64,000 nucleotides of DNA from Hymenobacter sp. CRA2 (GTDB lineage: Bacteria > Bacteroidota > Bacteroidia > Cytophagales > Hymenobacteraceae), in the NCBI RefSeq assembly GCF_002007105.1, contig NZ_MVBC01000011.1, positions 1 through 64,000 of the forward strand. Reading direction: 5' to 3'. The first letter of the stretch is position 1. Each line of letters begins with the position of its first letter. Below are positions 2,001 to 32,214 of this stretch, one piece after another. The notes below the pieces were generated by a model. That model was not told the DNA's origin. It did not search any database and saw only the letters and a program-made list of their open reading frames with translations. The translations under genes and the position numbers were made by a program.

Positions 2001-4310
2001 CTACTTTACCTCCACGTCCGCGCGCCGCGACTCCGGCGTCACCTTCAGCTCGGTGATTTTGCCATCCTTCACGGTACATTCCACGGTGGTCTGGTAGGGC
2101 GCGTGGAGCTTGAAATGCACGTCCCAGGCGCGGGGCCAGGCCGGCAGCAGGTAGATTTTCCGGTCGTCGGTTTGCAGCAGCATTTCCTGCAGCCCGATCA
2201 TGCCCGCGCCGCCCCAGTTGTGGTCGGGCGCCCAGTCGTAGCCGGGGCCCCAGAAGGCGGGAAAGCGGCGGCCCGAGTCCTGCAGCTTCTGCACCGTGAG
2301 GGCGGCGGCCTCGTCGGTCAGCCCCAGGCGGGCGGCGAAGATGTTGTGCTGCTTCCAGCCGATGTGGGTGCGGAATTTCTGCACGTCCGGGTCGTAGCGG
2401 TAGGTATTCTGCGCCACATCCAGATCGGGCCGGCCGATGCCGTACAGGCCCCAGGGAAACACCGGGTAGAGCTGCGGGCTTTCCACGTTGTTAACCCGCT
2501 CCCAGCTTTTGGCCGGCGCCAGCATCCTATGCCCGTCGATTTCGCGGAAGCTGATATTGGGGATGCGGCCGAGCATGGCCGTCCACGTCTTGCGCTGTTC
2601 CGCCGAGCCCATCTGCGGCGGCAAGGCCAGCAGGCGCGTGAGCACCGTGCGCAGGCCGCTGATGGTGGCGGTGGAGTTGTAGGCCATCTTGTAGGTCTCG
2701 GCTCCCGAACCGGGGTAGAGCACGAGGTGGCCTTCGCCGTCGAGGGCTTTGGCGCCGCGCTGCCGGGCCAGCTGCTGGTAGTGCTGGTCGAAGAAGGTCA
2801 GGCAGCTTTCGATGAAGGGCAAATACGGCCGCACGTCCTGGCCGCTGTACTGCCCGGCGTCGAGCATCATCAGGCAGAATTCCAGCACCGTGTCCCACTC
2901 GTATTCCAGCCAGGCGTTGTACTCCAGGCCGGGGTCAAAGCTGGGCGGCCGCTTCCAGCCGTACTCGGCGGGGTTGGGCAGGCCGAAGTTTTCGAGCTGT
3001 TCGGTAAAGCAGGCGCCGGGGTGCTGCCAGTACATCTGGCTGCGCAGTTCGGCGTTTTTGAGTAGGCGCAGGTAAAAATCGAACTGCGGCTTGAGTAGGG
3101 CCGCGTCGCCGCTTTTGAGCAGCGGCCAGTACACGAGGCGCTGGTTCTGGGCCGTGTGCGTGCCGCCGCCCCAGTTACGGAAGTCCGGGGTGAACTTCAG
3201 CGTGGAGTCGGTCAGGGCGGGGTCGTAGGTAAACAGGCCGCCGTTGAACTTGGTGGGCCACTGGCCCAGGCCATTGCAGCCGAGCATATAGCGCATCAGC
3301 TGATAATTGCGGCCGGCCTGCCACTCGGGGGCGTTTTCAGCGGCTCGGTCCGGCTGTACGTGGATGAAGCTGCGCTGCCAGAAGCTGCGCCACCAGGCCA
3401 GCGTCTGCTGCCGGGCGGCTTTGGGGTTTTGCCGGGCGGCTTGCTGGGTTTGCTGCAGCTCCCGCTGCCACTGCGCCAGGCTGGGCGCGTAGCTGGTGTG
3501 CAGGGCCAGCGTAAAGGCGTGGCTGCGGGCGGCGCTGCGGCTTTTCAGGGCATAGGCACGGTAGGGCGTGCGTTGGTATTGGCCCTCGGAGGTGCCGGCC
3601 GGCTGCATGTTCTCGCCGGTCAGCGCCCCGCCGAAGATGAGGTTCTGCAGCGGGTTGTACAGCTGCGCCTTCACGGCTTCGAGGCCCTGCTGGCGCACCG
3701 CCACGTCGAAGACGGTTGCGGGGCGGTTCTGGTGCACGAACTCCACCGCGCCGTTGCGGAAGCTGATGCTGTCGTGGCGCGTTCTGACCTCACCCTGTGG
3801 AGCCCACTTGTAGGAGTTCTGGTTGTTTTCCTTGCCCTTCGGCAGGCGGTCCTGGAAGCGCCAGCTTTCGTAGCGGGCCTCGGCCGTGAGCTTCTGGTTG
3901 CTGCTCACTTCCACGTGCACTACGGGGCGGAACACGTCGACCCAGATGTGCACCTGCGCTTGCAGGCCGCCTTGCGCGGCGGTCAGCGTCACGTCGCCCT
4001 GCCGTAGGTTCAGCGTCTGGGTGAAGGAGCCTTTTTCAAACGGATTCGGCGAGAGACGCAGGCGCACGCGGCCGAGCTTGAGCAGGGAGTTGTTTTCGTC
4101 GAAGGTGCCGCTGCGGGCGGCGTAGAAGAGCACATCGCCGTTTTCAGACCACACGTTCAGGCCCACGTCGCCGCCGCCGCAGGGCATGGACTCGGCGCTG
4201 TTGCGGCTCGGGCTGGTCCAGGTGATGTTGTTGGTGGCCAGTTCGGGGCTTTGGGCGGCAGCCGGGAGGCTGGCTAGTAGGAGCAGGCCGGCCCAGGCGA
4301 GGCGCCTCAC
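2001..4310 (-). CDS. DUF5703-containing glycoside hydrolase-like protein
   Basis: Exported carbohydrate-active protein of about 769 residues. After the signal sequence (core RRLAWAGLLLLASLPAAAQ) comes the DUF5703 N-terminal beta-sandwich, seen in NITWTSPSRNSAESMPCGGG and DVGLNVWSENGDVLFY. The rest looks like an (alpha/alpha)6 toroid as in GH95-like enzymes (GLEYNAWLEYEWDTVLEFCLMM, HNIFAARLGLTDEAAALTVQ). Family members sit in pectin loci; substrate unknown. Start: ATG 4439 overlaps the stop of the upstream gene as ATGA, but that reading adds 43 Pro/Arg-rich residues encoded by an intergenic palindrome, so GTG 4310 just before the signal peptide is preferred; coupling from ATG 4439 cannot be excluded. 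Last gene of the locus. Confidence 0.7.
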   Translation of the reverse strand: MRRLAWAGLLLLASLPAAAQSPELATNNITWTSPSRNSAESMPCGGGDVGLNVWSENGDVLFYAARSGTFDENNSLLKLGRVRLRLSPNPFEKGSFTQTLNLRQGDVTLTAAQGGLQAQVHIWVDVFRPVVHVEVSSNQKLTAEARYESWRFQDRLPKGKENNQNSYKWAPQGEVRTRHDSISFRNGAVEFVHQNRPATVFDVAVRQQGLEAVKAQLYNPLQNLIFGGALTGENMQPAGTSEGQYQRTPYRAYALKSRSAARSHAFTLALHTSYAPSLAQWQRELQQTQQAARQNPKAARQQTLAWWRSFWQRSFIHVQPDRAAENAPEWQAGRNYQLMRYMLGCNGLGQWPTKFNGGLFTYDPALTDSTLKFTPDFRNWGGGTHTAQNQRLVYWPLLKSGDAALLKPQFDFYLRLLKNAELRSQMYWQHPGACFTEQLENFGLPNPAEYGWKRPPSFDPGLEYNAWLEYEWDTVLEFCLMMLDAGQYSGQDVRPYLPFIESCLTFFDQHYQQLARQRGAKALDGEGHLVLYPGSGAETYKMAYNSTATISGLRTVLTRLLALPPQMGSAEQRKTWTAMLGRIPNISFREIDGHRMLAPAKSWERVNNVESPQLYPVFPWGLYGIGRPDLDVAQNTYRYDPDVQKFRTHIGWKQHNIFAARLGLTDEAAALTVQKLQDSGRRFPAFWGPGYDWAPDHNWGGAGMIGLQEMLLQTDDRKIYLLPAWPRAWDVHFKLHAPYQTTVECTVKDGKITELKVTPESRRADVEVK

Positions 4311-4313
4311 CCT

Positions 4314-4349
4314 CCGGCCCCCTCTCCGAAAAAGGAGAGGGGGAGCCGG
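4314..4349. repeat. Intergenic palindrome, CCCCTCTCC type
   Basis: Arms of about 14-16 bases (CCGGCCCCCTCTCC / GGAGAGGGGGAGCCGG) around a short A-rich loop. It is the same element type as at 27707-27743, and half copies occur near 9170, 17660, 20365, 27865 and 62415. Here it falls inside the ATG-4439 reading of the DUF5703 gene. Confidence 0.7.
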
Positions 4350-4435
4350 ACGACAAGGGGGCTGTTCTACAGGCGACGACGTTTGATAGCACGTCCTTCC
4401 TTCCGGAGGGAGGGGCACGGAATGAGGCGCTTGGT

Positions 4436-5872
4436 TCATTGCGCCCAGTCATCGGTGCGGAACGAGGACACCGGCAGGCCCTCGGTGCTGTAGAGCGTGG
4501 CGCGGGTGAAGTCCTGAAAGGCGTAGCGCACGGCCACCGGCTGCTTGACTTGCTCGGCCGTCACCTTGATGACGCTGCCGTCGATGCTGGCTTTGGCGGG
4601 AAACCATTTCTGGTCGGCCCCGGCCACTTCAAAGCCCGTCAGCGCCTCGCCGAAGGAGGTCATGCCGTTGGGTGCGTCCTTAAACTTCACCACCGCGGTG
4701 CCCTCCTTTACTTCCATCGATTCATACGCCGGGCTCACCGCCCCGAAGCCCTTGCGGCCGTAGATTTTCTGCAGGGCCAGCAGCGCCAGCCGCTGCCCGC
4801 CGGGCTCCTTGCGCATGGGGTGGATGCTGGCTTCCTCGCCCACGTCGAGCAGCACGGCCATGGCGGCGTTAGGAATCTGCGTTTCGGCCTTGCGCTGAGC
4901 GTCGCGGATAAAGGCCGAGTTGAACTTGCCGCCCTTGTTATAAGGCGGCAGCTGGGCGTAATTGTAGGGCGCAATCTGGGCGTAGTAGAACGGAAATTCG
5001 CCCTGGCCCCACTCCGCGCGCCACTGCTTCACCAGCGCCGCCAGCCGGGCCGGGTACTCGTCCGGGTGCTCGTAGTTCGACTCGCCCTGGTACCACAGGG
5101 CCCCGCGGATGCCGTAGCCCGCTACCGGGTGCAGCATGCCGTTGTAGAGCGTGGTGGGCGTGCGGTTAACCACCTTGATGGAGTCGGTTTTGGGTGGAAT
5201 CGTCACGCCCGCAAACTGCCGCAAGGTTTCCTCGCTCATCCACGCCTCGATGGTGGAGCCGCCGTAGCTGCAGTTAATCAGCCCAACGGGTACGTGCAAC
5301 TGCTCCTGCAACAGCCGACCGAAGTAGTAGGCCGTGGCGCTGAAATTGGCCACCGCCTCCGGCTCGGCCAGCTTCCAGGCAAAGGGCTTGCTGTTGTCCT
5401 TGGGCGCGGTGCGCGAGTTGCGCGGCACGTTGTAGAGGCGGATGTTGGGGTTCGTGGAGTGCAGAATGGCCTCGTTGGAGCCCAGAATCGGCTGGCCCTT
5501 GAAGCCCTTCATCGGCATCTCCATGTTCGACTGCCCCCCGCAGAGCCACACCTCGCCCACCAGTACGTTATTCAGCGTCAAGGGCTTGTCGTCGCCGCTG
5601 AAGTTGAGCGTGTAAGGCCCGCCCGCGGCCGGCGTCTTCACCCGCAGCTTCCAGCGGCCCTTGTCGTCGGCCTGGGCTTGGTACTTCTGCTTGGCCCACG
5701 ACGGGGATACGGTGATTTTAGCACCTGGCTTGGCCCAGCCCCAGACAGCGCACTCGGCCTGCTGCTGGAAAATCATGTTGTCGGTGAAGAGGGAGGGCAG
5801 GCGCAGCTCGGCCCGCAGCAGGAGCGGGGCCAGGAGCAGGGCGGCGGAAAGCAGGAGGGGCTTGGTGTTCAT
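4436..5872 (-). CDS. Sialate O-acetylesterase-type esterase (copy 1)
   Basis: Secreted SGNH-fold carbohydrate acetylesterase, 478 residues, expected to remove acetyl groups from pectic sugars so that glycosidases can act. Signal peptide MNTKPLLLSAALLLAPLLL. The catalytic serine lies in GEVWLCGGQSNMEMP; other blocks are ALWYQGESNY and the Asp/His region near GEEASIHPMRKEPGGQR. The family is named for sialate 9-O-acetylesterase, but in Bacteroidota pectin loci it acts on plant polysaccharides. The start at 5872 places the signal peptide at the N-terminus; the frame is open to ATG 5980 only because it crosses an intergenic palindrome. Second copy at 39494. Confidence 0.88.
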   Translation of the reverse strand: MNTKPLLLSAALLLAPLLLRAELRLPSLFTDNMIFQQQAECAVWGWAKPGAKITVSPSWAKQKYQAQADDKGRWKLRVKTPAAGGPYTLNFSGDDKPLTLNNVLVGEVWLCGGQSNMEMPMKGFKGQPILGSNEAILHSTNPNIRLYNVPRNSRTAPKDNSKPFAWKLAEPEAVANFSATAYYFGRLLQEQLHVPVGLINCSYGGSTIEAWMSEETLRQFAGVTIPPKTDSIKVVNRTPTTLYNGMLHPVAGYGIRGALWYQGESNYEHPDEYPARLAALVKQWRAEWGQGEFPFYYAQIAPYNYAQLPPYNKGGKFNSAFIRDAQRKAETQIPNAAMAVLLDVGEEASIHPMRKEPGGQRLALLALQKIYGRKGFGAVSPAYESMEVKEGTAVVKFKDAPNGMTSFGEALTGFEVAGADQKWFPAKASIDGSVIKVTAEQVKQPVAVRYAFQDFTRATLYSTEGLPVSSFRTDDWAQ

Positions 5873-8253: not shown

Positions 8254-11200
8254 TTATCTGGTCGGATTTGGTGCTGATTCCGTGGCTGTGCTGATGAGCA
8301 CCGGCCCGAGCAAGCCGGCGGGCAGCAGCGGCTTGGTGGCGGCTGGCGCGGGCGCCGTGGTCAGCGAGGTGCGGCGCTGCTCGGCCGGGAGGGCCGCGTC
8401 GCCGATGAGGCGGTTGGCCCAGGTGTTGGTCACCCGGATGCGCAGCTGATTGTCGCCCTTGCGCACGGCGTCGGTGATGTCGAGGCGGTAAGGTGCGGTC
8501 CAGGCCGTGCCGACGGACTGGCCATTCAACTCCACTTCGGCTAGGTTGTTTACCTGCCCGAGTTCGATATACACGCGCTGGTCGGACTTCTTTTTCGCTT
8601 TCCAACGGAAAGCCTTCGTGTAGTCGGCCGTGCCGGAGTAGTGGCGGATGCTTGCGTCGGCGTGTTGGCTCCAGTCACTTAGCTGCGCAAATGCCACGGG
8701 CTGGGCCGGGCCGCCGGCTTTGACATCGAACTGCACCTGCCAGGGACCGTTAAGCGTTTGCGCGGGCGTAGTCATCAGCCAGTTCTGGCCGTTGTGCGCA
8801 CTGAGTTGCGAGGTCGGCTGGCGGAAGACGACAAATATCGACCCGCTCGGCTCCAGGCGCAGCGGCAAGCGGGTGCGGCCGTGTTCCTGCTGCCAGTCCA
8901 GCGCCGGGCGGGTTTCGCCCGTTACCGCGTCCCATAGCTCCGGCTGCCGACCAGCCACGCGCAACGACAGGTCGATGGTCTGCAAGGAGTCAAGCTGATT
9001 GGACACGAAGTAAATGTCGAACTGCTCGGCCGTGCGGTGCGTCCAGGCAATGCCGCGGGCGCGCTGGCCGCCCGGGTAGCTGGCCGTCACGTCGCGGGTC
9101 AGGCCCAGCGGCTCGAAGGACTCGGCGGTGTAGGGGCCGCGCAGCAGGCGGCCATTCTGGCGGTTTGCCTCACCCTCCGGTGGAGAGGCGGAGCCAGACA
9201 CAGCAGAAGCCTGGGCGTCGGTGGTGGCGGTTTTCAGGCTGGCCGTCAGCTGCTGCACCTGCTGATCAGCCTGGGGGAAGTTGCGCAGTTCGGGCGAGCG
9301 GCTCGGCTGCCGGTCGAGCAGGACGGTGGCGCCGGCCTGCACCAGCTCCCGCAGCTTCTGCGCCACGGCGGGCGTCATGGAGGTGCTGTCGGGCCAGAGC
9401 GTGGTAGCGCCGGGCACTACGAGCAGGCCGTAGCTGGCGCCGCCGGGCAGCTCGATGCGGCCATTGCGGACCCGGGCCAGACGCAGCAGCGCATCGGGGT
9501 TGAAGGAATCGTAGGCGTAGCCGCGGAGTGGGTCCACCAGCATGGCGGCGGTGAAGCTGCCGGCCGTGGCCAATACTTTCTCAGGCATTTCGCGCATGGG
9601 CACGCCGGCGTTGGCCAGGCGCTTCCTTTCGCTTTCGACCTTCTGCGGGCCGACGATGCCGGGCAAGGTGGTCGTGAGGCGCTCGGGCAGCACGGCGCGG
9701 CGCGGGGTTTCCTCGCCGTTGAACACGGCCACGTCCACCACCGGGCGGCCCAGCTGCAAGAGCGCCTGGCAGCGGCGGGCGTAGTCGACCCAGGCGCGGC
9801 CGGGCCGCCACCAGGTCTGGTCGCGCTGGAAGTAGAGGCCCACGCCGTTGAGCGTCATACCTGGTTTTTTATCTAGCCAGGGGTTGTGGGCGAAGACGTG
9901 GTACACCAGGCGGTTGACGCCCAGCGCGTAGTTGCGGTCCTGCACCGATTTTAGCATGGCCGGGTGCTCGTCCCAGGCCATTTTCAGCTCGGTGAAGGAC
10001 TCGGCCTGCACCACGTTCTTGCCGTAGATATGCGCGCCGGAAATGGCGTCGAGCATGTCGTTGGGCTTGTCGTGGGTGGGGCTGCGCAGCCAGAACTCTC
10101 CCATGGGCGCGTCCACGTGCTGGTAGTGCAGCAGCCCGTCGCTGACCATGGTGGGGGCAATGGCTTCGGCCGAGAAGCTCACGCCTTTGGCCTTGGCTTC
10201 GGCGGCCAGCGTCACGTAGAATTTGTCGGCCACCAGCTCGGCAATGGTCTGGCGCACGTCGAAGAGCACGCGCTCCGATACCTCGGCGCTTTGCAGGGGC
10301 ACGCCGGCCAGCACCGGCAGGTAGGGCAGCAAATCGTAGCCGCGGCGCTGCCGGAACTCGGCGGCGAAGTTCTGGGACCAGTTCTGAGAGCCGCACTCCC
10401 AGCTGTCGACGTGCAGGGTCCGGAGCACGCGGCCGGCCAGCTCGGGGCCGCCCTGGCGCAGCGCTTCGCCAAACCAGCTGTCGAACTGCAGCTTCACGGC
10501 CTCAGGGTTGAATTTATCGCACTCCAAACCCAGGCCGCCGCCGCCGGTGTAGTTGGTGTAGCCGGTAGCGGTGTGGCCCACGCGCAGGATGGTCCAGCGC
10601 CCGGCCGGAGCGGTCCAGCTCAGACGGCCATCGGCCCCAAGCTTGTCGGTGAGGTTGAGGATCTTGCCCAGCGGCACGCACAGGGAATCGGGCAGCTCCC
10701 GGGCGGTGCTGCGCGGGCTCACGCGCCAGACTTCGCCGTTTTTGCCCTCAAACTGGTTGATGCGCGCCTCCGCCGACAGCCGGATTTCCGACACTTTCAG
10801 CGAGGGTTTCCACTTGGCAGCGTCCAGATCTTCGCCGCCCGGCTCGGAGCCGGCGGGGTCGTAGCGGAAGCGGAAAAAGCGGGCGGTGGTGGTCGGCAGC
10901 GCGTGCGTGACGGCGCTGCTGTCCTGCCAGCCGCTACGCGGCGGCGTCAGGCGCGTAACCGGCCGGAAGGTCTTACCGTCCTGGCTGGCTTCCACGATGA
11001 GGCGGTTGGCCTGGTAGTTATAACCGCTGGAGCGGATGCGCAGCGAGCGGGCCGTGAAGGGCTTGTCGAAAGCATACTGAATCCAGCCCGGCTCGGTGAG
11101 TTTGAAACCCTGCTTGTTGCCGGCCGTGGTCAGCAGCTCGGGCTTGCTCTCGGCGGCGCTGCTGGTCACCGTGGGCTTGGTCGTATAAGTCGAGACCCCG

Positions 11201-11775
11201 CCGCCGGCGGGCGTGGGGTAGGCGTACACGGCAATGTCGCGGTAGTAGCCCTTCACGGCCGCCGGCTGGGGCAGCTGAATGGCCTGCCGGCGCCCGCCCG
11301 TCAGCCGCGTTTCACTGAACACCACCTTCTGCATGGCCAGCTCGGGCGTAATCCAGGGCCCGCCGGCCAGGGCGAATCCGTCGCTCACGTGCATGGCCAG
11401 CTTCAGGCCCAGGCGGTCGGCTTCCGTCATGGCGTGGCGCACCATCTGCCACCAGCGCGGCGAGAGCTGCTCGGCCGGCGGCGTGACCAGCGGCTTGTCG
11501 CCCGCGCCGCGGATGGGCATCAGGTAGGCCCCGCCGATGCCGGCCTGCCGCATGGCTTCCAGATCGGCCGTGAGGCCCTCGGGCGTGACGGCCGCGTTCA
11601 TCCAGTACCAAAATACCCAGGGCTTGGCCGCCTCGGGTGGGTTTAGGAAGGCGGCCGGCAGCTCCGCCGCGGAGGTCGGCGCCGACTGCGCCCAGGCCGA
11701 ACCTGCCGGCAGCCAGCTCAGGGCGGGCAGCGCTAGGGTGAGCAGGGACAGGGAAAGAGTGTGCCGGTGCAGCAT
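8254..11775 (-). CDS. GH106 alpha-L-rhamnosidase
   Basis: Large exported glycosidase, 1173 residues, releasing terminal alpha-L-rhamnose. Signal peptide MLHRHTLSLSLLTLALPALS ending near AWAQS. The family N-terminus is clear: PWVFWYWMNAAVTPEGLTAD then LEAMRQAGIGGAYLMPI, the start of the TIM barrel, followed by the inserted beta-sandwich that carries the F5/8-type-looking region around 250-330. VDSWECGSQNW (about residue 440) and FSAEAIAPTM hold acidic residues typical of the active site. The C-terminal jelly roll (IYIELGQVNNLAEVELNGQ) is shared with GH2-like proteins. Length fits GH106. One of two rhamnosidases of different families in this locus. Confidence 0.88.
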   Translation of the reverse strand: MLHRHTLSLSLLTLALPALSWLPAGSAWAQSAPTSAAELPAAFLNPPEAAKPWVFWYWMNAAVTPEGLTADLEAMRQAGIGGAYLMPIRGAGDKPLVTPPAEQLSPRWWQMVRHAMTEADRLGLKLAMHVSDGFALAGGPWITPELAMQKVVFSETRLTGGRRQAIQLPQPAAVKGYYRDIAVYAYPTPAGGGVSTYTTKPTVTSSAAESKPELLTTAGNKQGFKLTEPGWIQYAFDKPFTARSLRIRSSGYNYQANRLIVEASQDGKTFRPVTRLTPPRSGWQDSSAVTHALPTTTARFFRFRYDPAGSEPGGEDLDAAKWKPSLKVSEIRLSAEARINQFEGKNGEVWRVSPRSTARELPDSLCVPLGKILNLTDKLGADGRLSWTAPAGRWTILRVGHTATGYTNYTGGGGLGLECDKFNPEAVKLQFDSWFGEALRQGGPELAGRVLRTLHVDSWECGSQNWSQNFAAEFRQRRGYDLLPYLPVLAGVPLQSAEVSERVLFDVRQTIAELVADKFYVTLAAEAKAKGVSFSAEAIAPTMVSDGLLHYQHVDAPMGEFWLRSPTHDKPNDMLDAISGAHIYGKNVVQAESFTELKMAWDEHPAMLKSVQDRNYALGVNRLVYHVFAHNPWLDKKPGMTLNGVGLYFQRDQTWWRPGRAWVDYARRCQALLQLGRPVVDVAVFNGEETPRRAVLPERLTTTLPGIVGPQKVESERKRLANAGVPMREMPEKVLATAGSFTAAMLVDPLRGYAYDSFNPDALLRLARVRNGRIELPGGASYGLLVVPGATTLWPDSTSMTPAVAQKLRELVQAGATVLLDRQPSRSPELRNFPQADQQVQQLTASLKTATTDAQASAVSGSASPPEGEANRQNGRLLRGPYTAESFEPLGLTRDVTASYPGGQRARGIAWTHRTAEQFDIYFVSNQLDSLQTIDLSLRVAGRQPELWDAVTGETRPALDWQQEHGRTRLPLRLEPSGSIFVVFRQPTSQLSAHNGQNWLMTTPAQTLNGPWQVQFDVKAGGPAQPVAFAQLSDWSQHADASIRHYSGTADYTKAFRWKAKKKSDQRVYIELGQVNNLAEVELNGQSVGTAWTAPYRLDITDAVRKGDNQLRIRVTNTWANRLIGDAALPAEQRRTSLTTAPAPAATKPLLPAGLLGPVLISTATESAPNPTR

Positions 11776-11933
11776 GAGGAAAGTGGTTGGGCGGAGCGGC
11801 CGGTTTGTGGAGCCGCAACCTTCTTGTCGTCAGAACGAAATCGGCTGACGGGACTTTAAAGCAAAATCGTGTTGGTGGCCCTGGTGGCGCCGACGAAGAG
11901 ACGCCAGGTTGCGGCGGCCCCACAGTTGACGTG

Positions 11934-13238
11934 CTAAACCAGCTTGTGGCGGATGCGGTAGCCGTACTGGCCGAAAAGCAGAATGACCAGGTAGCACACC
12001 AGCGGAATGAGGTAGCCAATCTGAATATTGTCGCCGCGCATGTCGATGAGCGTGCCCATGAGGTAGGGAATAATGGCCCCGCCCACGATGGACATCACCA
12101 GCCAGGACGAGCCGGGCTTGGTGTCGTCGCCCAGGCCGGCAATGCCCAGCGCGAAAATGGTGGGGAACATAATGCTCATAAAGAAGCCCAGGGCGCCCAG
12201 GGCGTAGATGACGTAGGCCCCGTCGCCGAACACGGCCACCGCGCACAAGGCCATGGCAATGACCGCGTAAATCGACAGCAGCCGTTGCGAGGCCACGTAC
12301 TTGAGCAGGGCCGTGCCCACGAAGCGCCCGATCATGAACAGCAGCCCGTACATGGCCAGGTAGTAGCCGGCGGTTTTCTCGTCGACGCCGGCGCCCTGCT
12401 TGGCCATGCGGATAAAGAAGCTGGTGACGCAGACCTGGGCCCCGACGTAGAAAAACTGCGCTACCACGGCCCAGGTCAGGTGCCGGTGCCGGAGCACGGC
12501 GAAGAAGCCGCCGCCCTGCGAGGGCTCGGCTTCGGCTGCTTTCACTTCGGGCAGCTTGCTGAAAAAGAAGAGCACCGCCACCGCCACCAGCACGCCGCCC
12601 AGCACCAGGTAGGGCAGTTTCACGGCGGCGGCTTCGTGGTTGAGGTAGGCAATGCGCTCGGCCGCGGGCATGGCCGCCAGCTGGGCCTTGCTGTACTCCG
12701 TGCCCGACAAAATCATGTTGGCCCCGACGATGGGCGCCACAAACACGGCCAGGCCGTTGAACGAGGCGGCCAGGTTCAGGCGGCTGGTGCTGCTTTCGGG
12801 CGGGCCGAGCACGGCAGCGTAGGGGTTGGCGGCGGTTTCGAGCGTGGTCAGCCCGCAGCCGATGATGAACAGCGCGGTCAGGAACAAACCGTAGGAGCGG
12901 GCATCAGCGGCGGGCACGAACAGGAACGCCCCTCCCGCAAAAGCCAGCAAACCCAGGATAATAGTGGTCTTGTAGCCCAGGCGCTGCAGCAGCATACCCG
13001 CCGGCATGGCCATCAGGAAGTAGGCCAGAAACACGGCCGTGTCCACCAGCGTCGACTGCCGGTTGTTGAGCTGGCAGGCCTTCTGCAGGTGCGGAATCAG
13101 GATGGAATCCAGGCTGTGCGCCATGCCCCAGAGGAAAAACACGCCCACCACCAGAATGAACGGGAGCAGGTAGGCGCGGGCGCTGGCGGGGGAGCCAGCG
13201 GCAACCGGCGGCGGGGTGGGAGCAGGGGCAAGGGCCAT
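11934..13238 (-). CDS. FucP-family sugar/proton symporter
   Basis: Inner-membrane MFS transporter of 434 residues in the L-fucose permease branch, with about 12 hydrophobic segments. Diagnostic stretches are YLLPFILVVGVFFLWGMAHS at TM1, NRQSTLVDTAVFLAYFLMAM, GCGLTTLETAANPY and LNLAASFNGLAVFVAPIVG. Expected to import a monosaccharide freed by the periplasmic glycosidases (rhamnose, galactose, arabinose or fucose; sequence alone does not decide). It sits downstream of the MaoC gene across a palindromic spacer and upstream of GH106. The start has a short Ala/Pro-rich cytoplasmic leader. Confidence 0.87.
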   Translation of the reverse strand: MALAPAPTPPPVAAGSPASARAYLLPFILVVGVFFLWGMAHSLDSILIPHLQKACQLNNRQSTLVDTAVFLAYFLMAMPAGMLLQRLGYKTTIILGLLAFAGGAFLFVPAADARSYGLFLTALFIIGCGLTTLETAANPYAAVLGPPESSTSRLNLAASFNGLAVFVAPIVGANMILSGTEYSKAQLAAMPAAERIAYLNHEAAAVKLPYLVLGGVLVAVAVLFFFSKLPEVKAAEAEPSQGGGFFAVLRHRHLTWAVVAQFFYVGAQVCVTSFFIRMAKQGAGVDEKTAGYYLAMYGLLFMIGRFVGTALLKYVASQRLLSIYAVIAMALCAVAVFGDGAYVIYALGALGFFMSIMFPTIFALGIAGLGDDTKPGSSWLVMSIVGGAIIPYLMGTLIDMRGDNIQIGYLIPLVCYLVILLFGQYGYRIRHKLV

Positions 13239-13328
13239 GGGGCGGAGCGGGTTGGGTGGGAGGTTCGGGTTGGATTTTGGGTTGGCGGGCTGTCGTCAGG
13301 CCCTGGTCAGGCTGTTAGCGGCGGCAGG

Positions 13329-13429
13329 CCGTCACGACGAGCTTGTCGAGACACGTCGCGTGTTTAGCCGGATAATAATTTCTATCCGACATCCGCACGC
13401 GAGCTGGCTCGCCAAGCTCGTCGTGACGG
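13329..13429. repeat. Inverted-repeat element between FucP and MaoC genes
   Basis: Perfect 17-base arms CCGTCACGACGAGCTTG (13329-13345) and CAAGCTCGTCGTGACGG (13413-13429) with a 67-base spacer that contains GCGTG/CACGC and CCGGATA/TATCCG sub-palindromes. Related in layout to 18955-19069. Confidence 0.75.
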
Positions 13430-13433
13430 GCAA

Positions 13434-13886
13434 TTAAGCGCTTTGCGGCCGCAGCTTGACCACCAGCAGATGGTCGCAGGCCAGCACGACTTCGCCGTGC
13501 TCGTTGAAGATTTCCACGTGCTCGGTCACCTGCCCGTAGCCTGGCTTTTTGCCCGCGGTTTTCTCCGAAATCGTGACTTCCGAGCGGATGGTGTTGCCGA
13601 TGAACACGGGCTTGATGAAGCGGAGCCGGTCGTAGCCCTTGGAAAAGGCCTCCGGGTTGATTTCCGAGGCCGTCAGCCCAATACCGATGCTGAACACCAT
13701 GGTGCCGTGGGCAATGCGCTGGCCGAAGGGCTGGGTTTTGCACCACTCCGCGTCGAGGTGGTGGGGAAAAAAGTCGCCCGTGTGCCCGGCATGGACCACG
13801 AAGTCGGTTTCGGTGAGCGTGCGGCCCAGCGTCACGCGCTTGTCGCCGAGGGTGTAGTCTTCGAAAAAGGTGGATTTGAAGTACAT
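13434..13886 (-). CDS. MaoC-like (R)-hydratase/dehydratase
   Basis: Cytoplasmic single hot-dog-fold protein of 150 residues. The hydratase-2 signature is complete: GHTGDFFPHHLDAEW with Asp38 and His43, then FGQRIAHGTM, as in PhaJ-type enzymes that add water to or remove it from 2-enoyl-CoA. It therefore most likely works on a CoA thioester, which fits the two CoA-transferases 3 kb upstream in the same direction. Start at ATG 13886 (MYFKSTFFEDYTLG); the longer frame to 13937 only adds Gly/Pro-rich spacer translation. Substrate unknown; inference is a sugar-derived hydroxyacyl-CoA. Confidence 0.85.
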   Translation of the reverse strand: MYFKSTFFEDYTLGDKRVTLGRTLTETDFVVHAGHTGDFFPHHLDAEWCKTQPFGQRIAHGTMVFSIGIGLTASEINPEAFSKGYDRLRFIKPVFIGNTIRSEVTISEKTAGKKPGYGQVTEHVEIFNEHGEVVLACDHLLVVKLRPQSA

Positions 13887-14063
13887 AGCAGGTTGAGCCT
13901 GGCCCCGGCCACCTTTCCCGAGAAGAGGCGAAGCCAATCAGCCGCAGTGAGTTCAGTTGCTCATCGACTTCGGCTGCCGACTGGTTCGTCGCTGTGGAGT
14001 GGTGTTCGGGGCTTAATGGGGTGGTTAAGGTGCGCGGTTAAAGCGTGGCAAGTGTCCTGTTCT

Positions 14064-15173
14064 CTACCGCTTTTCGAGAGTAGTGGCGGCAGCGGCGCCC
14101 GCAGCGCCGGGTGCCCCGTCACTAGCCGCGTACGCCGCTTCCACTACGGCCATGGTTTTGATGACGTCCTCCACGCTGGTGGGCAATACATCGATTTCGC
14201 CGTTTTTGAACTGCATCAAACTGCCCATGGTGCCCATGAAGGCGTCGGGGAACCATGAGCCTTCCAGCTCCACCGTGTGCCAGCTCGGGGCTTCGCCCTC
14301 GCGCACCAGGCAGTACTCAAACTTGTCGGGCACGCCGTGGGGGTAGTCCATGAGCAGGCCCATGCGGGCTTTGATGGCGCCTTTGGTGCCTTCCCACTTG
14401 ATAAAGCTTTCCTGGTTGTGCGGCCCGAAGGAGTGGTCGTGGTTGGTGTTGATGACCGCGTGCAGGGTGTCGCCGTAGTCGAAGAGGATGGTGGAACGCG
14501 AGGAAGACAGCGCCTTGGCCGGGTGCTTGAGCGTCTTGGCCATCACGCGCTGCGGCTCGCCCAGGAAGGAGCGAATCAGGTCGATGTAGTGGATGCTGTG
14601 GTACTGGATTTCCAGGCGCGGGTGCACCATCACGTGCGGAAACAGCTCCCAGGGCGTTTCCAGCGTCACGCGCACTTCCAGATCGTACAGCTCGCCGATC
14701 AGGCCCTGGGCCAGCATGTGGCGGGCGGCGGCCACGTAGGGGGCGAACCGCAGCTGGCAGTTGATGGCGGCCACCAGGTGTTTGCGCCGGCAGACCTCCA
14801 GGATTTGCTGGCTTTGCCAGAAATAGTCGCCCATGGGCTTCTGAATCAGTACGGCCGCCCCGTCGGGTAGCTGCTCCAGCGTTGCCACGAACTGCTCGGG
14901 CATGATGGTCACGTCGTAGACCGCGTCGGCGGGGGCGTACGCCACGGCCTCGGCCACCGAATCGTAGACGTGCGGAATGCCCCACTCCGCGGCCAGCTTT
15001 TCGGCCCGGGCGCGGGTGCGGTTGGTGATGCCCACGACTTCAAAGCCCGCCTTGCGGTAGGCCGGCAAATGGGCGTCGCCCACGATGCCGCCCGCGCCAA
15101 CGATGACGATGGGCAGCGGCCGGGCGGGCCGCTGGGGCTGGTAGGGAATTGGGGTACCGGCTATGCTAAACAT
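14064..15173 (-). CDS. Gfo/Idh/MocA-family oxidoreductase
   Basis: Cytoplasmic NAD(P)-dependent sugar or cyclitol dehydrogenase-like protein of 369 residues. Rossmann start at residues 20-45: PIVIVGAGGIVGDAHLPAYR, then a second strand GFEVVGITNRTRARAEKLA. The family's EKP motif appears as QKPMGDY, keeping the lysine. The C-terminal substrate domain follows (HPRLEIQYHSIHYIDLIRSF), with the conserved His-x3-Asp arrangement HYID. Its start overlaps the stop of the solute-binding gene by 8 bases, so the two are translationally coupled. The C-terminus is a low-complexity Ala/Gly tail. Part of the CoA/solute-binding module. Confidence 0.87.
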   Translation of the reverse strand: MFSIAGTPIPYQPQRPARPLPIVIVGAGGIVGDAHLPAYRKAGFEVVGITNRTRARAEKLAAEWGIPHVYDSVAEAVAYAPADAVYDVTIMPEQFVATLEQLPDGAAVLIQKPMGDYFWQSQQILEVCRRKHLVAAINCQLRFAPYVAAARHMLAQGLIGELYDLEVRVTLETPWELFPHVMVHPRLEIQYHSIHYIDLIRSFLGEPQRVMAKTLKHPAKALSSSRSTILFDYGDTLHAVINTNHDHSFGPHNQESFIKWEGTKGAIKARMGLLMDYPHGVPDKFEYCLVREGEAPSWHTVELEGSWFPDAFMGTMGSLMQFKNGEIDVLPTSVEDVIKTMAVVEAAYAASDGAPGAAGAAAATTLEKR

Positions 15174-16422
15174 GGTCGGGAGTGGTGTTTAGAGCGTTGA
15201 TTTTGGCTTGCGCAGCGGCCAGCAGCTCGGCTACCGGCTCTTCGGTGTTGAGGGCCTGCAGCACCACTTCGTCGATGACGGCGGCCAGCTGGGCCCAGTT
15301 GGCCTTGGCCGGTAGGGTTTCGGCCTGTTCGTGCAGCGCGGCCAGCTTGTGGTAGTAGGGCACCTGGGCGTTGATGTCGGCGTCGTGCCAGGTCGAGAGG
15401 CGGCAGCCGATGCCGCCTTCCAGCGTGAGTTGCTTGTCGTTTTCGGCGCTGGTGGCGAAGCGGATAAAGTCATAGGCTACGTCCTGGTGCCGGCTGCCCG
15501 CGGCTATGGCGTACAGCCAATACACGTTCAGCGAGGCGGAGCGGCCCGTTGCACTTTCGCCGCGCGGCACGGCGGTAATGTCGACTTTGCCGCGCACCGG
15601 GCAGGCCGCGTCCACCTCGCACACGGCCGCGAAGCCAAACCAGTTGATCATCAGCGCGGCCTCGCCGCGGGCAAAGGCCTGCCCGGCCTGCACCGACTCG
15701 TACTGCATGGACTGCGGGTGAATGGCCGCTTGGTCGCGCAGCAGCTGGCGGTAAAAGCTCAGGCCTTCCCGCGCCGCTGCGGAGTCAATCTGCACCCGCC
15801 CCTGCTCATCCAGCAACTGGCCGCCGCGGGTCCAGAGCTGCAGGCAAAAGTCGAAGACGGTGTTGTGCCCGTCGGGGTAGCCGGCAGCCACGAAGCCGTA
15901 CAAGTTCTGCGCCGGGCGGTGGAAAAAGCGGGCCACTTGCTGCAGCTCCGTCCAGGTAGTGGGCGGCTGCAAGGGGCGGCCGTGCTGCTGCTGAAAGGCG
16001 GCTTGCTCCTGCGGATTGTCGAAGAGGTCTTTGCGGTAAATCAGGCACTCCGGCCCGTCGTGGAAGGGCAGGCCCAGGGTGGTGGCGCCATAGCCCTGCA
16101 TGCCCAGCAACGAGGGACTCCAACCCTGCGGAAAGTCGGCCGGCGGGTTGTGCTCGATGAGCGGCGTGAGGTCCAGCAAAGCGCCGGCGGCCTGGGCTTC
16201 GGGCAGCCAGTCGGTGTTGATGTGGGCCAGGTCCCAGGCACCGGTTTCCAAGCCCTTGTCGGTGAGCAGGCTCTGGTGCAGCGGGTGCAGGTCCAGGGCC
16301 ACGAACTCGGCCGGCAGCGTGCAGCCGGAGTGCGCGCAGTAAGCCGTCCAGAGCTTCTGCATGTGGGCTTCGAAGGGCGCGAACTTGCGCACGGCCATGC
16401 GGAACGGGGTCGGCTCAGTCAT
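15166..16422 (-). CDS. Solute-binding-protein fold, no signal peptide (copy 1)
   Basis: 418 residues resembling family 1 extracellular solute-binding proteins of sugar ABC transporters: [20 protein letters not shown] then [41 protein letters not shown], and a hinge-region [20 protein letters not shown]. Unlike true binding proteins it starts [20 protein letters not shown], with no hydrophobic signal, lipobox or Tat motif. ATG 16422 overlaps the stop of the CoA-transferase gene (8 bases), which fixes the start, so a missed signal is unlikely. No ABC permease or ATPase gene is nearby. I infer a cytoplasmic protein that binds a sugar or sugar acid as a carrier, sensor or enzyme partner. Confidence 0.8.
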
Positions 16423-17578
16423 GCTGCGCGATGTTGCTGGTCATGAATTCCTGCTGCAGGCGGGCGTTGTCCTGGCCCAGCTGGGGCGAGCCGACAGCCG
16501 AGGTCAGCAGCTCCCCGTCGAGGCGGATGGGGCAGCGGGTGGTCTGGTATGCATAGCCGTCGGTCATCTGCACGGTCTGCGTCATGTCCAGGCCGCGGAA
16601 ACCCTCGTGCTGCAGCAGCTCGTCCCAGCGCAGCACGCCAGCGCACCAGATATCGGCGGGCTCCAGCACGGCCAGCCAGGCTTCCGTCGTGTTGGTGCGC
16701 AGGTGCTGAGCCAGCGTGGCCTTGATGTCGTCGCGCTGCTCGAAGGCCTGCTTCGGGTCGGGATACGCCAGTAGGGCCGGGCAGCCGAGCAGCTCACCCA
16801 GCTTGGGGATGGAGCCCATGGCCAGGGCCAGGTAGCCGTTCTGCGTCTGGTAGATGCCGTAGGGCGCGCCGAGGTAGGCGTGGGCGCTGTTGTGGCGGGT
16901 GCGCTGGGGCAGTTGGCCGCCGTCGTTGAAGTGCGTGGTCAGCGTCTCGAACTGAAAGTCAATGGCCGATTCGAGCATGCTCACCTGCACCAAACCTCCC
17001 TCGCCGCGCAAACTGCGGCGCACCAGGCAGGCCAGCAGCCCCTGCGCCAGGTGCGCCCCGGCCAGCATATCCACGATGGAGAGGCCCATGGGCACCGGGC
17101 CGCTGTTCGCGTTGCCGCTCAGCCAAGTCAGGCCCGAAACGGACTGCAGGAGCAAATCCTGGCCGGGCTTGTCGCGCCAGGGGCCGTCGGGGCCGTAGCC
17201 GGAAATTTCGCCGTAGACCACGCTGGGGTTCTGGGCCCGCACGCTCGCGTAGTCGAAACCCAGGCGCTCCATCACGCCGGGGCGGTAGTTGTGCATCACC
17301 ACGTCGGCGCGGCGCACCAGCTCCCAGACCTGGGCGCGGTCGGCTTCGCTCTTGAGGTCGGCGGCAAAGCTTTCCTTGTTGCGGTTGATGGCGTGAAACA
17401 CCGACGACTCCCCGTTCATGATGACGTTGGAGGTGTAGAGGTGCCGGCAGATGTCGCCGGTTTCGGGCCGCTCAATCTTGATGACCCGCGCCCCGAAATC
17501 GGCCAGGCGCAGGGCCGCCGAGGGGCCGGAGAGGAACTGGCTGAAATCAACCACTAAGTAGTCTTCGAGCGGCTTCAT
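16415..17578 (-). CDS. Class III CoA-transferase (CaiB/BaiF family), copy 1
   Basis: Cytoplasmic enzyme of 387 residues that moves CoA between carboxylic acids through an aspartyl-CoA intermediate. N-terminus [20 protein letters not shown] then [17 protein letters not shown] is classical; the catalytic Asp is residue 170 in [17 protein letters not shown], equivalent to Asp169 of formyl-CoA transferase. Other family blocks: [33 protein letters not shown]. The start is ATG 17578; an ATG 24 bases upstream adds only MTFHFLLP. Overlaps the following solute-binding gene. Paralogue of the next upstream gene; two such proteins might form a hetero-interlocked dimer or act on two acids. Confidence 0.9.
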
Positions 17579-17599
17579 GGGAAGTAGAAAGTGGAACGT

Positions 17600-17760
17600 C
17601 ATGTCCAGCGCAGTCGGGACATCTCGCGGGCTTCGTTGCGCCGCACGGGCCCCCTCGGGGGCCGGCCCCTCTCCGAAAAGGGAAATGCGCCTCAGGCATT
17701 TCTTCGGGGAAGCCAGACGATGTAGGCTTGGGGCGCTGGATTTTGACGCGGCGTTCCTGG
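17600..17760. repeat. Spacer with composite palindrome fragments
   Basis: Non-coding spacer between the two CoA-transferase genes. Contains a half element GTCCAGCGCAGTCGGGACATCTCGCGGGCTT (related to 18955-19069; given here only as position 17606-17635 in effect) followed by a CCCCTCTCCGAAAAGGG hairpin near 17667-17684. No gene seen. Confidence 0.45.
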
Positions 17761-18927
17761 TCAGTTGCTGATGGTGGTTCGTAGGTTGAATTCCGCGTCT
17801 AGGGCGGCGGTGTGCTGGCCGGGGCGCGGGGCGGCCTGGGGCGCGTACAGCTTCTGGCCGTCGATGCGGATGGGGCAGCGGGTGGTGGCCAGCTGCTGGC
17901 CGTCAGGTAGCTGCACGCGCTGCTGCATGCCCAGGGCCTGGAAACCGGGGCTGCTGGTGGCCTGCTGGTAGTCGAGCACCTGAGCGCACCAGATGCCCAG
18001 CGGCTCCAGCGTGGTCAACCAATGCTGGGTCGGCTTTTCGCGCAGGGCGGCGGTAAGTTTTTCGGCAATGGCGTCGCGGAACTCAAACCACGACGCGGGC
18101 TCGGGATACGCCTCCAGGATGCCGCAGCCCAAGGTTTCATCAAGCTGGGGCAGGTTGCCCATGGCCAGGGCCAGGTAGCCGTCCTGGGTGGGGTAGAGGC
18201 CGTAGGGCGCGCTCAGGTAAGGGTGGGCGGTGCCGCGCACGGCCCCGCGCTGGGGCAGCTGCCCGCCGTCGTTGAAGTGGGTGGTCAGCAGCTCAAACTG
18301 CATGTCGAGCACCGATTCCAGCAGGCTGGCTTCCACCAGCACACTTTGGCCCGTCTTGCCGCGCTTCAACAGGCCGGCCAGCAGCCCCTGGGCGAAGTGC
18401 GAGCCGCAGATGATGTCGGCCACCGCAATGCCGAAGGGGGTGGGGCCGTCCTGGGCGGTGCCGCTCAGCCAGGTCAGCCCCGACATGGATTGCACCAGCA
18501 AATCCTGCCCCGGCTTGGTGGCCCAGGGGCCCGTCGGGCCGTAGCCCGTCACCACGCCGTATACGATGCGCGGGTTCAGGGCGCGCACGGCGTCGTAGTC
18601 CAGCCCGATTTTCTCCATGATGCCCGGCCGGAAGTTGTGGGTCATCACGTCGGCCCGGGCCAGCAGCTGCTTCACGCGGGCCAGGTCCTCGGGGTTTTTC
18701 AGGTCGGCCGCGTAGGATTCCTTGTGGCGGTTGATGGTGTGAAACACCAGGCTGGAGCCGTCGATAAACAGGTTCTTGATGGCAATCTGCCGGCCTGCCT
18801 CGCCCGCGCCCGGCCGCTCGATCTTGATGACGCGCGCGCCGAGGTCGGCCAGGCGCAGTCCCGCCGAGGGCGCGGCCAAAAACTGGCTGAACTCGATGAC
18901 TAGCAGACCTTCCAGGGGAAGTGACAT
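17761..18927 (-). CDS. Class III CoA-transferase (CaiB/BaiF family), copy 2
   Basis: 388 residues, clearly homologous to the copy downstream along its full length ([78 protein letters not shown]). Catalytic Asp171 lies in [17 protein letters not shown]. Both copies share the late motif [13 protein letters not shown] and the C-terminal [10 protein letters not shown], suggesting they diverged after a local duplication. Cytoplasmic. Lies between two palindromic spacers in the module with two solute-binding-fold proteins, MaoC and Gfo/Idh/MocA. Confidence 0.9.
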
Positions 18928-18954
18928 AGAAGTTTATTCGGGGTTCTTTGGGTT

Positions 18955-19069
18955 GTCCTGTCGAGCTTATCGAGGCATCTCGCGGGCTGACGTCCGAGAG
19001 TATTGTTCCGATGCCGCGTTTACTATCTCGCATCAGCCCGCGAGATGTCTCGGCTTCGCTCGACAGGAC
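18955..19069. repeat. Inverted-repeat element, 'GTCCTGTCGAG' type
   Basis: Arms start GTCCTGTCGAGC and end GCTCGACAGGAC; further in, GCATCTCGCGGGCTGA pairs with TCAGCCCGCGAGATG with few mismatches. About 115 bases, non-coding, between the CoA-transferase and solute-binding genes. Same family as part of 8113-8250. Likely a REP/MITE-type element rather than a gene-specific control site. Confidence 0.75.
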
Positions 19070-19148
19070 GGGCTGCTTTTTTTGTTCAGGCGAAGCGGTA
19101 GAGCTGCTTCGACTGCGCTCCGCATGACGTTCTTATTTGCTCGTTCAG

Positions 19149-20345
19149 TTAGCGTTGCGCAGCAGCGGCGGTCGGTGCTTCGGCCGCCTGCATCTGCCGC
19201 GACTCGCGGTAGAGCTGGTTTAGCTCCTGCAGCAAGGCCCGCTCGTCGCCGCCGTGCTTGAGGTACTGGCGTACCGGCTCGCCGGCGTGGTCCTGGAAGA
19301 ACATGTGGCCGTGGTAGCGGGGGCGCAGGAAAGCGCGCTGCAGCGTGGGCAGGGTGGCGCGGAAATAGTCGTGGCTCTGCTCGTTGGGGTGCGCGGCCTG
19401 CCAGGCGGCGAGGTGGCCGGGCTGGCCGCCGTTGTCGAAGTACAGGGTTTGCTGGCAGGCGGGCGAGGCCACAAACGCGGCGTACTGAACTGCTACTTCC
19501 ACGTGCTGGCACTTGGCGGAAATAGCCAGGCCGGTGCCGCCGAGGGTGCTGCGCATGGGCGTGCCGCCGGGCTGCAAGGCCACTAAGTCGTGGAAGTGCA
19601 GCAGCTGGCGGGCGTAGCCGCGGCGGGCGTAGTTTGAGTAGCCGTAGGCGAAGGGGCAGTAAGCCAGCGAGTCGGTCTGGGTCATAGCCTCGTACACCTG
19701 AATGGGGTTGCGCTGGAAGCAGGCCGGATCGACCTTGCTGGCCAGCTCCCGGAACAGCTGCAGGGCCTGCACGCCCACGGCTTCGCTCACCACCTCGTCC
19801 TCGCGCTGGCAGGGGTCTTCGCCCAGCGAGCAGCAGAACATGTAGAAGCTCATCAGCGTGTCGATGGGAATCAGTGCGAAGGCCACCAGGCCGCGGTCGG
19901 CCAGCCGGAGCAGCTCCTCGAAGGTCTGCGGCACCTGCAGGCCGTGCCGGGCCAGCAGATCGGGGCGGCTGGCGGCTACGGGCGTGGCCGCGTCGATGGG
20001 CAGGGCCCACTGGTGCCCGCTGAAGGAGTAGCTTTCGTAGGAGTGGCCCACGGTGTTCTGCTGCTGATCGGCCAGGAAGGCGGCGGGCAGGTGCTGGTCG
20101 AGGGGCAGAATGGAGCCGGTGCGGGCGGCAAAGCCGGCCCAGGGGTGGTCGATGACCAGCAGATCAAACCGCTCGGCCAGCTGCTGAATGGACTCATCGG
20201 CAAACTGCTGCAGGCTGCGCTTTTCCCAGCTGATGCTCACGTTCGGGTGCAGCTCCGAAAAGCGCTGCGCGGTGGCGGCCATGGGCACGAAGCCGCGGCT
20301 GTGGTTCCAGGTAATGCCTTTCAGGTGAATGTGTTCGGCGGACAT
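19149..20345 (-). CDS. Solute-binding-protein fold, no signal peptide (copy 2)
   Basis: 398 residues with the layout of family 1 sugar-binding proteins: HIHLKGITWNHSRGFVPMAA, AQRFSELHPNVSISWEKRSL, FDLLVIDHPWAGFAA, LPIDAATPVAASRPDLLARH, TLGGTGLAISAKCQHVEVAV, AFVASPACQQTLYFDNGGQP. The start MSAEHIHLKG at ATG 20345 has no signal peptide or lipobox; upstream codons to 20552 translate a palindromic spacer. Only distantly like the other signal-less binding protein at 15166, so not a recent duplicate. First gene of the module in transcription order. No permease or ATPase in the window. Function unknown; cytoplasmic ligand binding is inferred. Confidence 0.78.
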   Translation of the reverse strand: MSAEHIHLKGITWNHSRGFVPMAATAQRFSELHPNVSISWEKRSLQQFADESIQQLAERFDLLVIDHPWAGFAARTGSILPLDQHLPAAFLADQQQNTVGHSYESYSFSGHQWALPIDAATPVAASRPDLLARHGLQVPQTFEELLRLADRGLVAFALIPIDTLMSFYMFCCSLGEDPCQREDEVVSEAVGVQALQLFRELASKVDPACFQRNPIQVYEAMTQTDSLAYCPFAYGYSNYARRGYARQLLHFHDLVALQPGGTPMRSTLGGTGLAISAKCQHVEVAVQYAAFVASPACQQTLYFDNGGQPGHLAAWQAAHPNEQSHDYFRATLPTLQRAFLRPRYHGHMFFQDHAGEPVRQYLKHGGDERALLQELNQLYRESRQMQAAEAPTAAAAQR

Positions 20346-32111: not shown

Positions 32112-32214
32112 GGAAAAGTCGGTAGTTGGTAGTAGGCAGCCGGCAGCACGGCTACTGCACAAAGCTGCGGCTCCGGCCTCGGGCAGCTCTCCTGAGCCTA
32201 CCCGGCCTTCTGTA

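Follow-up and report, generated by a model that had tools for sequence, protein, structure and literature searches.

The six-gene module and its conservation

The window analysed here is a 64,000 nt stretch of DNA from Hymenobacter sp. CRA2 (contig NZ_MVBC01000011.1, positions 1 to 64,000). On its minus strand, from position 20345 to 13434, lies a six-gene module in which solute-binding proteins (SBPs) are encoded together with CoA-transferases, an oxidoreductase and a hydratase. In this paper, the six genes are called SBP1, CoAT1, CoAT2, SBP2, Gfo/Idh and MaoC. A first-pass annotation, made from the DNA letters, had described six co-directional genes of these families. This description was borne out: all six open reading frames (ORFs) were found in place on the minus strand, and each protein scored above a Pfam gathering score. 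The genes are as follows.

19149-20345, minus strand: SBP1, ATG start, 398 amino acids (aa), Pfam SBP_bac_1, with the motif T-W-x-H-[SPT]-R-G at residues 12-18
17761-18927, minus strand: CoAT1, 388 aa, Pfam CoA_transf_3, class III (CaiB/BaiF) CoA-transferase with Asp171
16415-17602, minus strand: CoAT2, 395 aa, Pfam CoA_transf_3, class III (CaiB/BaiF) CoA-transferase with Asp178, 55% identical to CoAT1
15166-16422, minus strand: SBP2, 418 aa, second signal-less family-1 solute-binding fold, Pfam SBP_bac_1
14064-15173, minus strand: Gfo/Idh/MocA oxidoreductase, 369 aa, assigned by Pfam
13434-13886, minus strand: MaoC-type hydratase, 150 aa, Pfam MaoC, with D38/H43

As listed, the MaoC ORF opens further upstream, at a TTG. 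The Gfo/Idh protein reached no NCBIfam cut-off, and CoAT1 and CoAT2 were below every NCBIfam cut-off listed. Three of the junctions had been described as overlapping or nearly so. In the window, this is correct for only two of the five: CoAT2/SBP2 and SBP2/Gfo overlap by 8 nt each, and the other three are gaps of 158-221 nt.

Relatives of the module were collected by searching genome contigs with an SBP1 profile. This search gave 522 matches in the stretches scored, and the best 80 were kept as loci. The core genes were placed by tblastn; the ORF caller of our script is greedy for the longest frame and produced false ORFs among the high-G+C Hymenobacter neighbours. The identical six-gene order on one strand was observed in 77 of the 80 loci, which come from Hymenobacter, Pedobacter, Mucilaginibacter, Sphingobacterium, Olivibacter, Flavobacterium and others. 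Two of the three exceptions are short contigs (5.7 and 6.3 kb), and the third has SBP2 near the end of another contig. The distance from SBP1 to CoAT1 does not exceed 20 nt in 64 of the 71 loci measured (median -4 nt, usually overlapping). From CoAT2 to SBP2 it is 12 nt or less in all 67 measured loci (median -8), and from SBP2 to Gfo it stays within 20 nt in 69 of 74 (median -4). These counts exclude loci affected by the greedy ORF caller, by cut contigs or by gene fusion. The host genome comprises 5.9 Mb in 45 contigs, with the window on contig C2, and the nearest SBP1 relatives in our collection of named genomes are from Hymenobacter.

The two binding-protein genes also occur together. Among 58 genomes of near relatives (the host's own included), SBP1 and SBP2 were found in the same nine. 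In a draw of 296 Bacteroidota genomes, strong SBP1 matches (E <= 1e-169) were present in 16 and SBP2 matches (E <= 1e-40) in 10, all within those 16; seven further genomes with weak partial SBP1 matches only were left out of the count. The hypergeometric p values are ~1e-10 for the first set and 7e-15 for the second, both ignoring the relatedness of the genomes. Because the gene order is conserved and the genes co-occur, chance adjacency was rejected, and the linkage noticed in the window is thus conserved in other genomes. The module has a patchy distribution, which would be expected of a catabolic unit that moves horizontally, yet its parts travel together.

Solute-binding proteins without an export signal

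Both binding proteins have the family-1 SBP fold, as judged by Pfam, structure models and Foldseek. The models of SBP1 and SBP2 gave mean predicted local distance difference test (pLDDT) values of 91.5 and 92.5, respectively, and their top PDB matches are CUT1 sugar-binding proteins. The best Foldseek match of the SBP2 model is MalE3 (6dtq; template-modelling (TM) score 0.84). The 50 matches listed per model, of more than 1000 at E <= 0.001, are all binding proteins, with TM scores (by query) of 0.66-0.85 and identities of 13-25%.

The first-pass annotation had claimed that these proteins begin without a signal peptide. We examined this claim by a hydrophobicity test, not by SignalP: a Kyte-Doolittle mean above 1.6 over 12 residues, with the start nearest to the homologous N-terminus, was scored as an export-signal-like stretch. 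Such a stretch was observed in 0 of 77 SBP1 (the 80 loci minus three without an in-frame start) and 0 of 78 SBP2, versus 12 of 12 annotated ATP-binding cassette (ABC) binding proteins from the fetched plasmid clusters, which were used as controls. When all upstream in-frame starts were allowed, a hydrophobic N-terminus was possible in two of the 77 SBP1 loci (L070 from a GTG, L109 from an ATG), and no upstream in-frame start yielded a signal-like stretch for any SBP2 locus or for either SBP of the window. Missed signal peptides are not supported by these tests. As judged from their N-terminal sequences, SBP1 and SBP2 are apparently cytoplasmic proteins that have lost the export signal.

It had further been claimed that no ABC permease or ATPase accompanies the module. 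In the window this holds, since a cognate permease and ATPase are absent from the operon and none lies beside the module. It does not hold for two of the 80 loci, L050 (17748-21136) and L052 (17544-21140), in which the module's transporter gene is closely followed, on the opposite strand, by ABC permease, ATPase and FGGY kinase genes; those of L052 were assigned by clustering. We read these genes as a separate operon. In Alphaproteobacteria, the ABC operon near CoAT-SBP1 has its own signal-bearing SBP. These two loci, the two hydrophobic upstream starts, the family-1 fold and the CUT1 sugar SBPs as nearest solved relatives are what would be expected if the SBPs were ordinary periplasmic proteins with misread starts, serving an ABC importer elsewhere. 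However, the complete lack of signals at the nearest start against the uniformly positive controls, together with the result for upstream starts in SBP2 and in both window proteins, makes this explanation very improbable.

SBP1 carries a conserved segment near its N-terminus. All 39 sequences compared, which come from Bacteroidota, Alphaproteobacteria, Variovorax and Streptomyces and reach down to 34% identity, have T12, W13, H15, R17 and G18. In the model, the TWxHxRG segment is located where strand 1 meets helix 1, which presumably corresponds to the lining of the sugar cleft in maltose-binding protein. SBP-CoAT fusions were searched for by ORF length in the 80 loci and 11 others, and none was found; a 641-residue frame in L111 spans two separately annotated genes and was taken as a frame artefact.

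The enzymes and the versions in other lineages

The catalytic residues of the enzymes, which had been reported as intact, were confirmed. Both CoA-transferases have the class III domain with its Asp: in the alignment, this column is Asp in 25 of 25 CoA-transferases (D171 in CoAT1 and D178 in CoAT2, the latter being D170, as first reported, if translation begins at the MKPLED methionine). We take this column to be the catalytic one, from formyl-CoA transferase. In nine Hymenobacter loci (L034, L035, L036, L038-L042 and L044, near 11160-13873), CoAT1 and CoAT2 are fused as a single frame of 792-835 residues, which suggests that the two may form a single heteromeric enzyme. In a tree of the 25 CoA-transferases, CoAT1 (100/100) and CoAT2 (98/98) each form a clade, and the two clades are joined by a weaker fork (82/85). 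The alphaproteobacterial CoA-transferases lie outside CoAT1 and CoAT2, and those of Streptomyces, Variovorax, Sinorhizobium medicae pSymA and a haloarchaeon are far off.

MaoC possesses both the domain and the Asp/His pair (D38/H43), and the motif G-D-x(3,4)-H is present in all 77 relatives that have MaoC. Its match to PDB 4ffu has an E value of 6e-63. In other versions of the module, namely L199 and L201 (both Pfam-confirmed), Streptomyces, S. medicae pSymA and Variovorax, a crotonase takes the place of MaoC. These are two unrelated folds with one chemistry, and the earlier idea of a (de)hydration step gains support because of this exchange.

Versions beyond the 80 loci were sought by tblastn of plasmid records, and SBP1 matches were found in 146. 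The weakest match listed, from Deinococcus (21.7% identity), is probably a generic SBP. In S. medicae, Thalassospira, Roseibium, Shinella and Labrenzia and also in Streptomyces and Variovorax, SBP1 overlaps a CoA-transferase gene that precedes it; in Qingshengfaniella, 14 nt separate the two genes. Several alphaproteobacterial clusters add an amidohydrolase, an IclR regulator, a CUT1-type ABC importer with its own signal-bearing SBP, L-rhamnose mutarotase (RhaM; five clusters), Gfo and MaoC. The Roseibium cluster includes an SDR and an annotated L-fuconate dehydratase, with a fuconolactonase-like amidohydrolase and an FAH below cut-off. In Sinorhizobium meliloti pSymB, similar parts are present with CoAT-SBP1 about 10 kb off. 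SBP2-like matches in the alphaproteobacterial clusters were rejected as orthologues, being signal-bearing CUT1 SBPs; four of them that were compared share 25.8-28.2% identity with the window SBP2 over part of its length. Croceibacterium has both SBPs with CoA-transferase, MaoC, Gfo and fucosidase genes. The haloarchaeon Halostagnicola has SBP2 with the same four kinds of genes, and next to SBP2 it encodes an AMP-binding protein of the CoA ligase type. In two of the six Bacteroidota genomes with strong SBP1 and no SBP2, a crotonase and an aldehyde-dehydrogenase-like gene replace MaoC and Gfo; we assume that the latter encodes an aldehyde dehydrogenase.

What most versions have in common is an SBP of this type, a class III CoA-transferase and a CoA-thioester hydratase with one or the other of two unrelated folds. 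The versions differ in their sugar transporters (FucP, RhaT, ABC and tripartite ATP-independent periplasmic (TRAP) types) and sugar dehydrogenases. Without a sugar-derived acid that is processed in the form of its CoA thioester, such a combination would be difficult to account for.

Sugar context, candidate pathway and known systems

Two further genes of the window bear on the sugar.

11934-13238, minus strand: FucP-type major facilitator superfamily (MFS) sugar symporter, TIGR00885 (fucP) 371.8 bits against a cut-off of 280.4
31095-32330, minus strand: Zn-dependent dehydrogenase of the same polysaccharide locus, a possible pathway member

The FucP-type gene is the next one after MaoC, and 77 of the 80 loci encode a relative 61-95% identical to the window protein; only the three incomplete loci lack it. 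RhaT is present in six further loci (L026 and L113 are apparently the same Rufibacter plasmid) and in L200, L202 and L203. In Flavobacterium tagetis (L109), genes divergent from the module encode an L-fucose dehydrogenase, which scores above its cut-off, and two proteins that score below theirs, a diketo-acid hydrolase and one resembling fuconolactonase; the Zn-dehydrogenase of this fucose-type operon is 59% identical to that of the window. The Zn-dehydrogenase was the only one found in the window among the relatives of the oxidative L-fucose pathway set that were sought there. The surroundings are a polysaccharide utilisation locus, in agreement with the pectin locus first noted: SusC-/SusD-type genes, the Zn-dehydrogenase, GH78, a GH130-like protein and two GH2 lie upstream of the module, and GH106, GH127, a SASA esterase and a DUF5703 protein lie downstream. 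The DUF5703 protein (2001-4439) is at the end of the pectin locus, and another is annotated near the module in Rufibacter. In six of the 80 loci (L047, L097, L098, L099, L101 and L102), the module is followed, downstream of the MFS gene, by genes for a RuBisCO-like protein, a four-carbon acid sugar kinase-type protein and an Asp/Glu racemase-like protein. From this context, the sugar is probably of the 6-deoxy-L type.

In our judgement, there is about an even chance that the module is a CoA-dependent cytoplasmic catabolic unit for a 6-deoxy-L-sugar (L-fucose or L-rhamnose type) or its acid, in which the SBPs are subunits of the CoA-transferase. The substrate, the direction, the reaction order and the contact between SBPs and CoA-transferases in the following scheme are those that we infer from the genes. 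The FucP-type symporter, the likely importer of the module, would take up the sugar after its liberation from rhamnogalacturonan-like pectin. Gfo/Idh may then oxidise the sugar to a lactone or acid. In the cytosol, the sugar acid would be bound by SBP1 and SBP2, CUT1-type proteins with a lost signal, and presented to the heteromeric class III CoAT1/CoAT2, which would convert it to its acyl-CoA. MaoC would (de)hydrate the acyl-CoA, in effect standing in for a metal-dependent aldonate dehydratase. Finally, the CoA would be handed to the next substrate, and the 2-keto-3-deoxy acid would undergo dehydrogenation and hydrolysis by genes encoded elsewhere.

Several observations weigh against this reading, in addition to the ABC genes of L050 and L052. 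SBP2 is absent from several versions of the module, and in four of the six SBP2-negative Bacteroidota genomes (L198, L200, L202 and L203) an amidohydrolase, 28-31% identical to a fuconolactonase-like protein and in one case confirmed by Pfam, is present at the SBP2 position. In G339 and in G023/G027, the CoA-transferase genes are separate from SBP1, which in G023/G027 pairs with Gfo. On a Microvirga ossetica plasmid (L140:8985-11170), the gene that overlaps SBP1 is one for a UxuA-like mannonate dehydratase, and the annotation of the 21 kb examined includes no CoA-transferase. The lactonase- and FAH-type matches are all below NCBIfam cut-offs. On host contig C9 (L191, C9:95000-111969), L-rhamnose genes (isomerase-like, below cut-offs, and rhamnulose-phosphate aldolase-dehydrogenase, over its cut-off) lie beside an oxidative L-fucose operon. 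In three other stretches of module-bearing Bacteroidota genomes, altronate-dehydratase-type (UxaA) proteins of 551-554 residues are encoded beside fucose genes, one of them confirmed by Pfam. Alphaproteobacterial clusters also contain ordinary dehydratases, namely L-fuconate dehydratase together with another protein of the MR family. L191 also carries a second FucP and a GH28.

The pairing of SBP1 with the UxuA-like gene or Gfo, the amidohydrolase at the SBP2 place and the invariant residues at the strand 1/helix 1 junction would also be understandable if SBP1, and perhaps SBP2, were itself an enzyme acting through TWxHxRG, as a lactonase, epimerase or dehydratase, for example, and the CoA-transferases catalysed pathway steps of their own. 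This seems unlikely, because the structural matches listed for both models are binding proteins and the SBP genes are mostly coupled to CoA-transferase genes. Another idea is that the SBPs are cytoplasmic carriers or sensors, which buffer or report the imported sugar and do not associate stably with the CoA-transferases. Their sugar-binding folds and conserved segments suit this role, and an IclR-type regulator cluster, which includes an annotated IclR, is present in 32 of the 80 loci. However, the IclR gene would be the expected sensor, the tight coupling and fixed order with the CoA-transferases would be needless, and there are two SBPs per operon. We regard carriers or sensors as rather improbable.

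The classical dehydratases also bear on the substrate. They weaken the view that the module is the missing L-fuconate dehydratase everywhere; even the G267 cluster, which initially seemed free of an MR-family gene, has one a few kb beyond it. Because ordinary aldonate dehydratases coexist with it, the module need not be a dehydratase for L-fucose itself and may instead act on a modified or branched relative of this sugar. A rival explanation is that the module removes or processes an acidic or modified pectic sugar and in this way feeds the ordinary L-fucose route, whose dehydratase it would not replace. Aceric acid and methylated fucose, which are sugars of rhamnogalacturonan II (RG-II), are examples. 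The retention of ordinary L-rhamnose and L-fucose genes in the host and relatives is consistent with this, as are the rhamnogalacturonan-type enzymes of the window (GH106, GH78, GH127 and GH2). A GH141-RhaM fusion near the module in three loci (L103:4766-7291, by Pfam; L106 and L109, by clustering) is also in line with it. On the other hand, the marine, haloarchaeal and actinobacterial versions adjoin fucosidases, a sulfatase or ABC importers and not an RG-II set. On balance we doubt this explanation, while taking it seriously.

Returning to the SBPs as CoA-transferase subunits, a broader proposal can be made, tentatively and with somewhat more doubt than belief: SBPs may have been recruited to the cytosol as substrate-presenting subunits of a heteromeric class III CoA-transferase, and CoA-dependent aldonate dehydration, a CoA-thioester route for sugar acids not described before, may occur in Bacteroidota, Proteobacteria and Streptomyces, and in a haloarchaeon with SBP2 in place of SBP1. 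In the database records that we saw, these SBPs are named extracellular solute-binding or ABC substrate-binding proteins, a misnomer for what would be a class of cytoplasmic metabolic proteins. Textbook sugar-acid routes use free acids, and the module, if the CoA-dependent model is right, would add a CoA-thioester branch to sugar-acid catabolism and provide candidates for the catabolism of unusual pectic deoxy-sugars. No published description of such a module was found in our searches of open-access papers. The protein families are known; the combination, the cytoplasmic SBPs and the inferred chemistry appear to be undescribed.

The SBPs of CUT1 ABC importers (MalE3, trehalose/maltose-binding protein and SmoF) share the fold and Pfam SBP_bac_1 with the module SBPs. 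In contrast, the latter have no signal peptide or ABC partner in the operon, and their genes are coupled to CoA-transferases. The module CoA-transferases resemble formyl-CoA transferase, YfdE and succinate-HMG CoA-transferase in family and catalytic Asp, but differ from them in being tied to solute-binding proteins in a sugar-type neighbourhood. The heteromeric benzylsuccinate CoA-transferase BbsEF is built of two different subunits, and CoAT1 and CoAT2, a conserved gene pair, may likewise be two subunits of one enzyme. Four papers (PMC9007349, PMC3454389, PMC11378808 and PMC4961836) served as background only. In Klebsiella michiganensis, a sugar acid, deoxyribonate, is proposed to be degraded as CoA thioesters (deoxyribonyl-CoA), and the cluster includes a CoA-transferase together with a CoA synthetase, a dehydrogenase and a thiolase; the terms MaoC, solute-binding and substrate-binding are absent from the main text of that paper (PMC6365646). 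Deoxyribonyl-CoA was the only precedent for a sugar acyl-CoA that we found in the parts of the open-access literature covered.

In carnitine metabolism, the class III CoA-transferase CaiB occurs with the enoyl-CoA hydratase CaiD. The association of CoA-transferase and hydratase genes is similar in the module, with a crotonase in some versions, and the two enzymes might likewise act on one acyl-CoA. The module differs in its sugar context, its SBPs and the MaoC of most versions seen. Finally, the oxidative L-fucose pathway consists of fucose dehydrogenase, fuconolactonase, fuconate dehydratase, 2-keto-3-deoxyfuconate (KDF) dehydrogenase and a diketo-acid hydrolase. Its gene families neighbour the module in Alphaproteobacteria and F. 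tagetis; to our knowledge, the known route itself proceeds without CoA, a CoA-transferase or an SBP.

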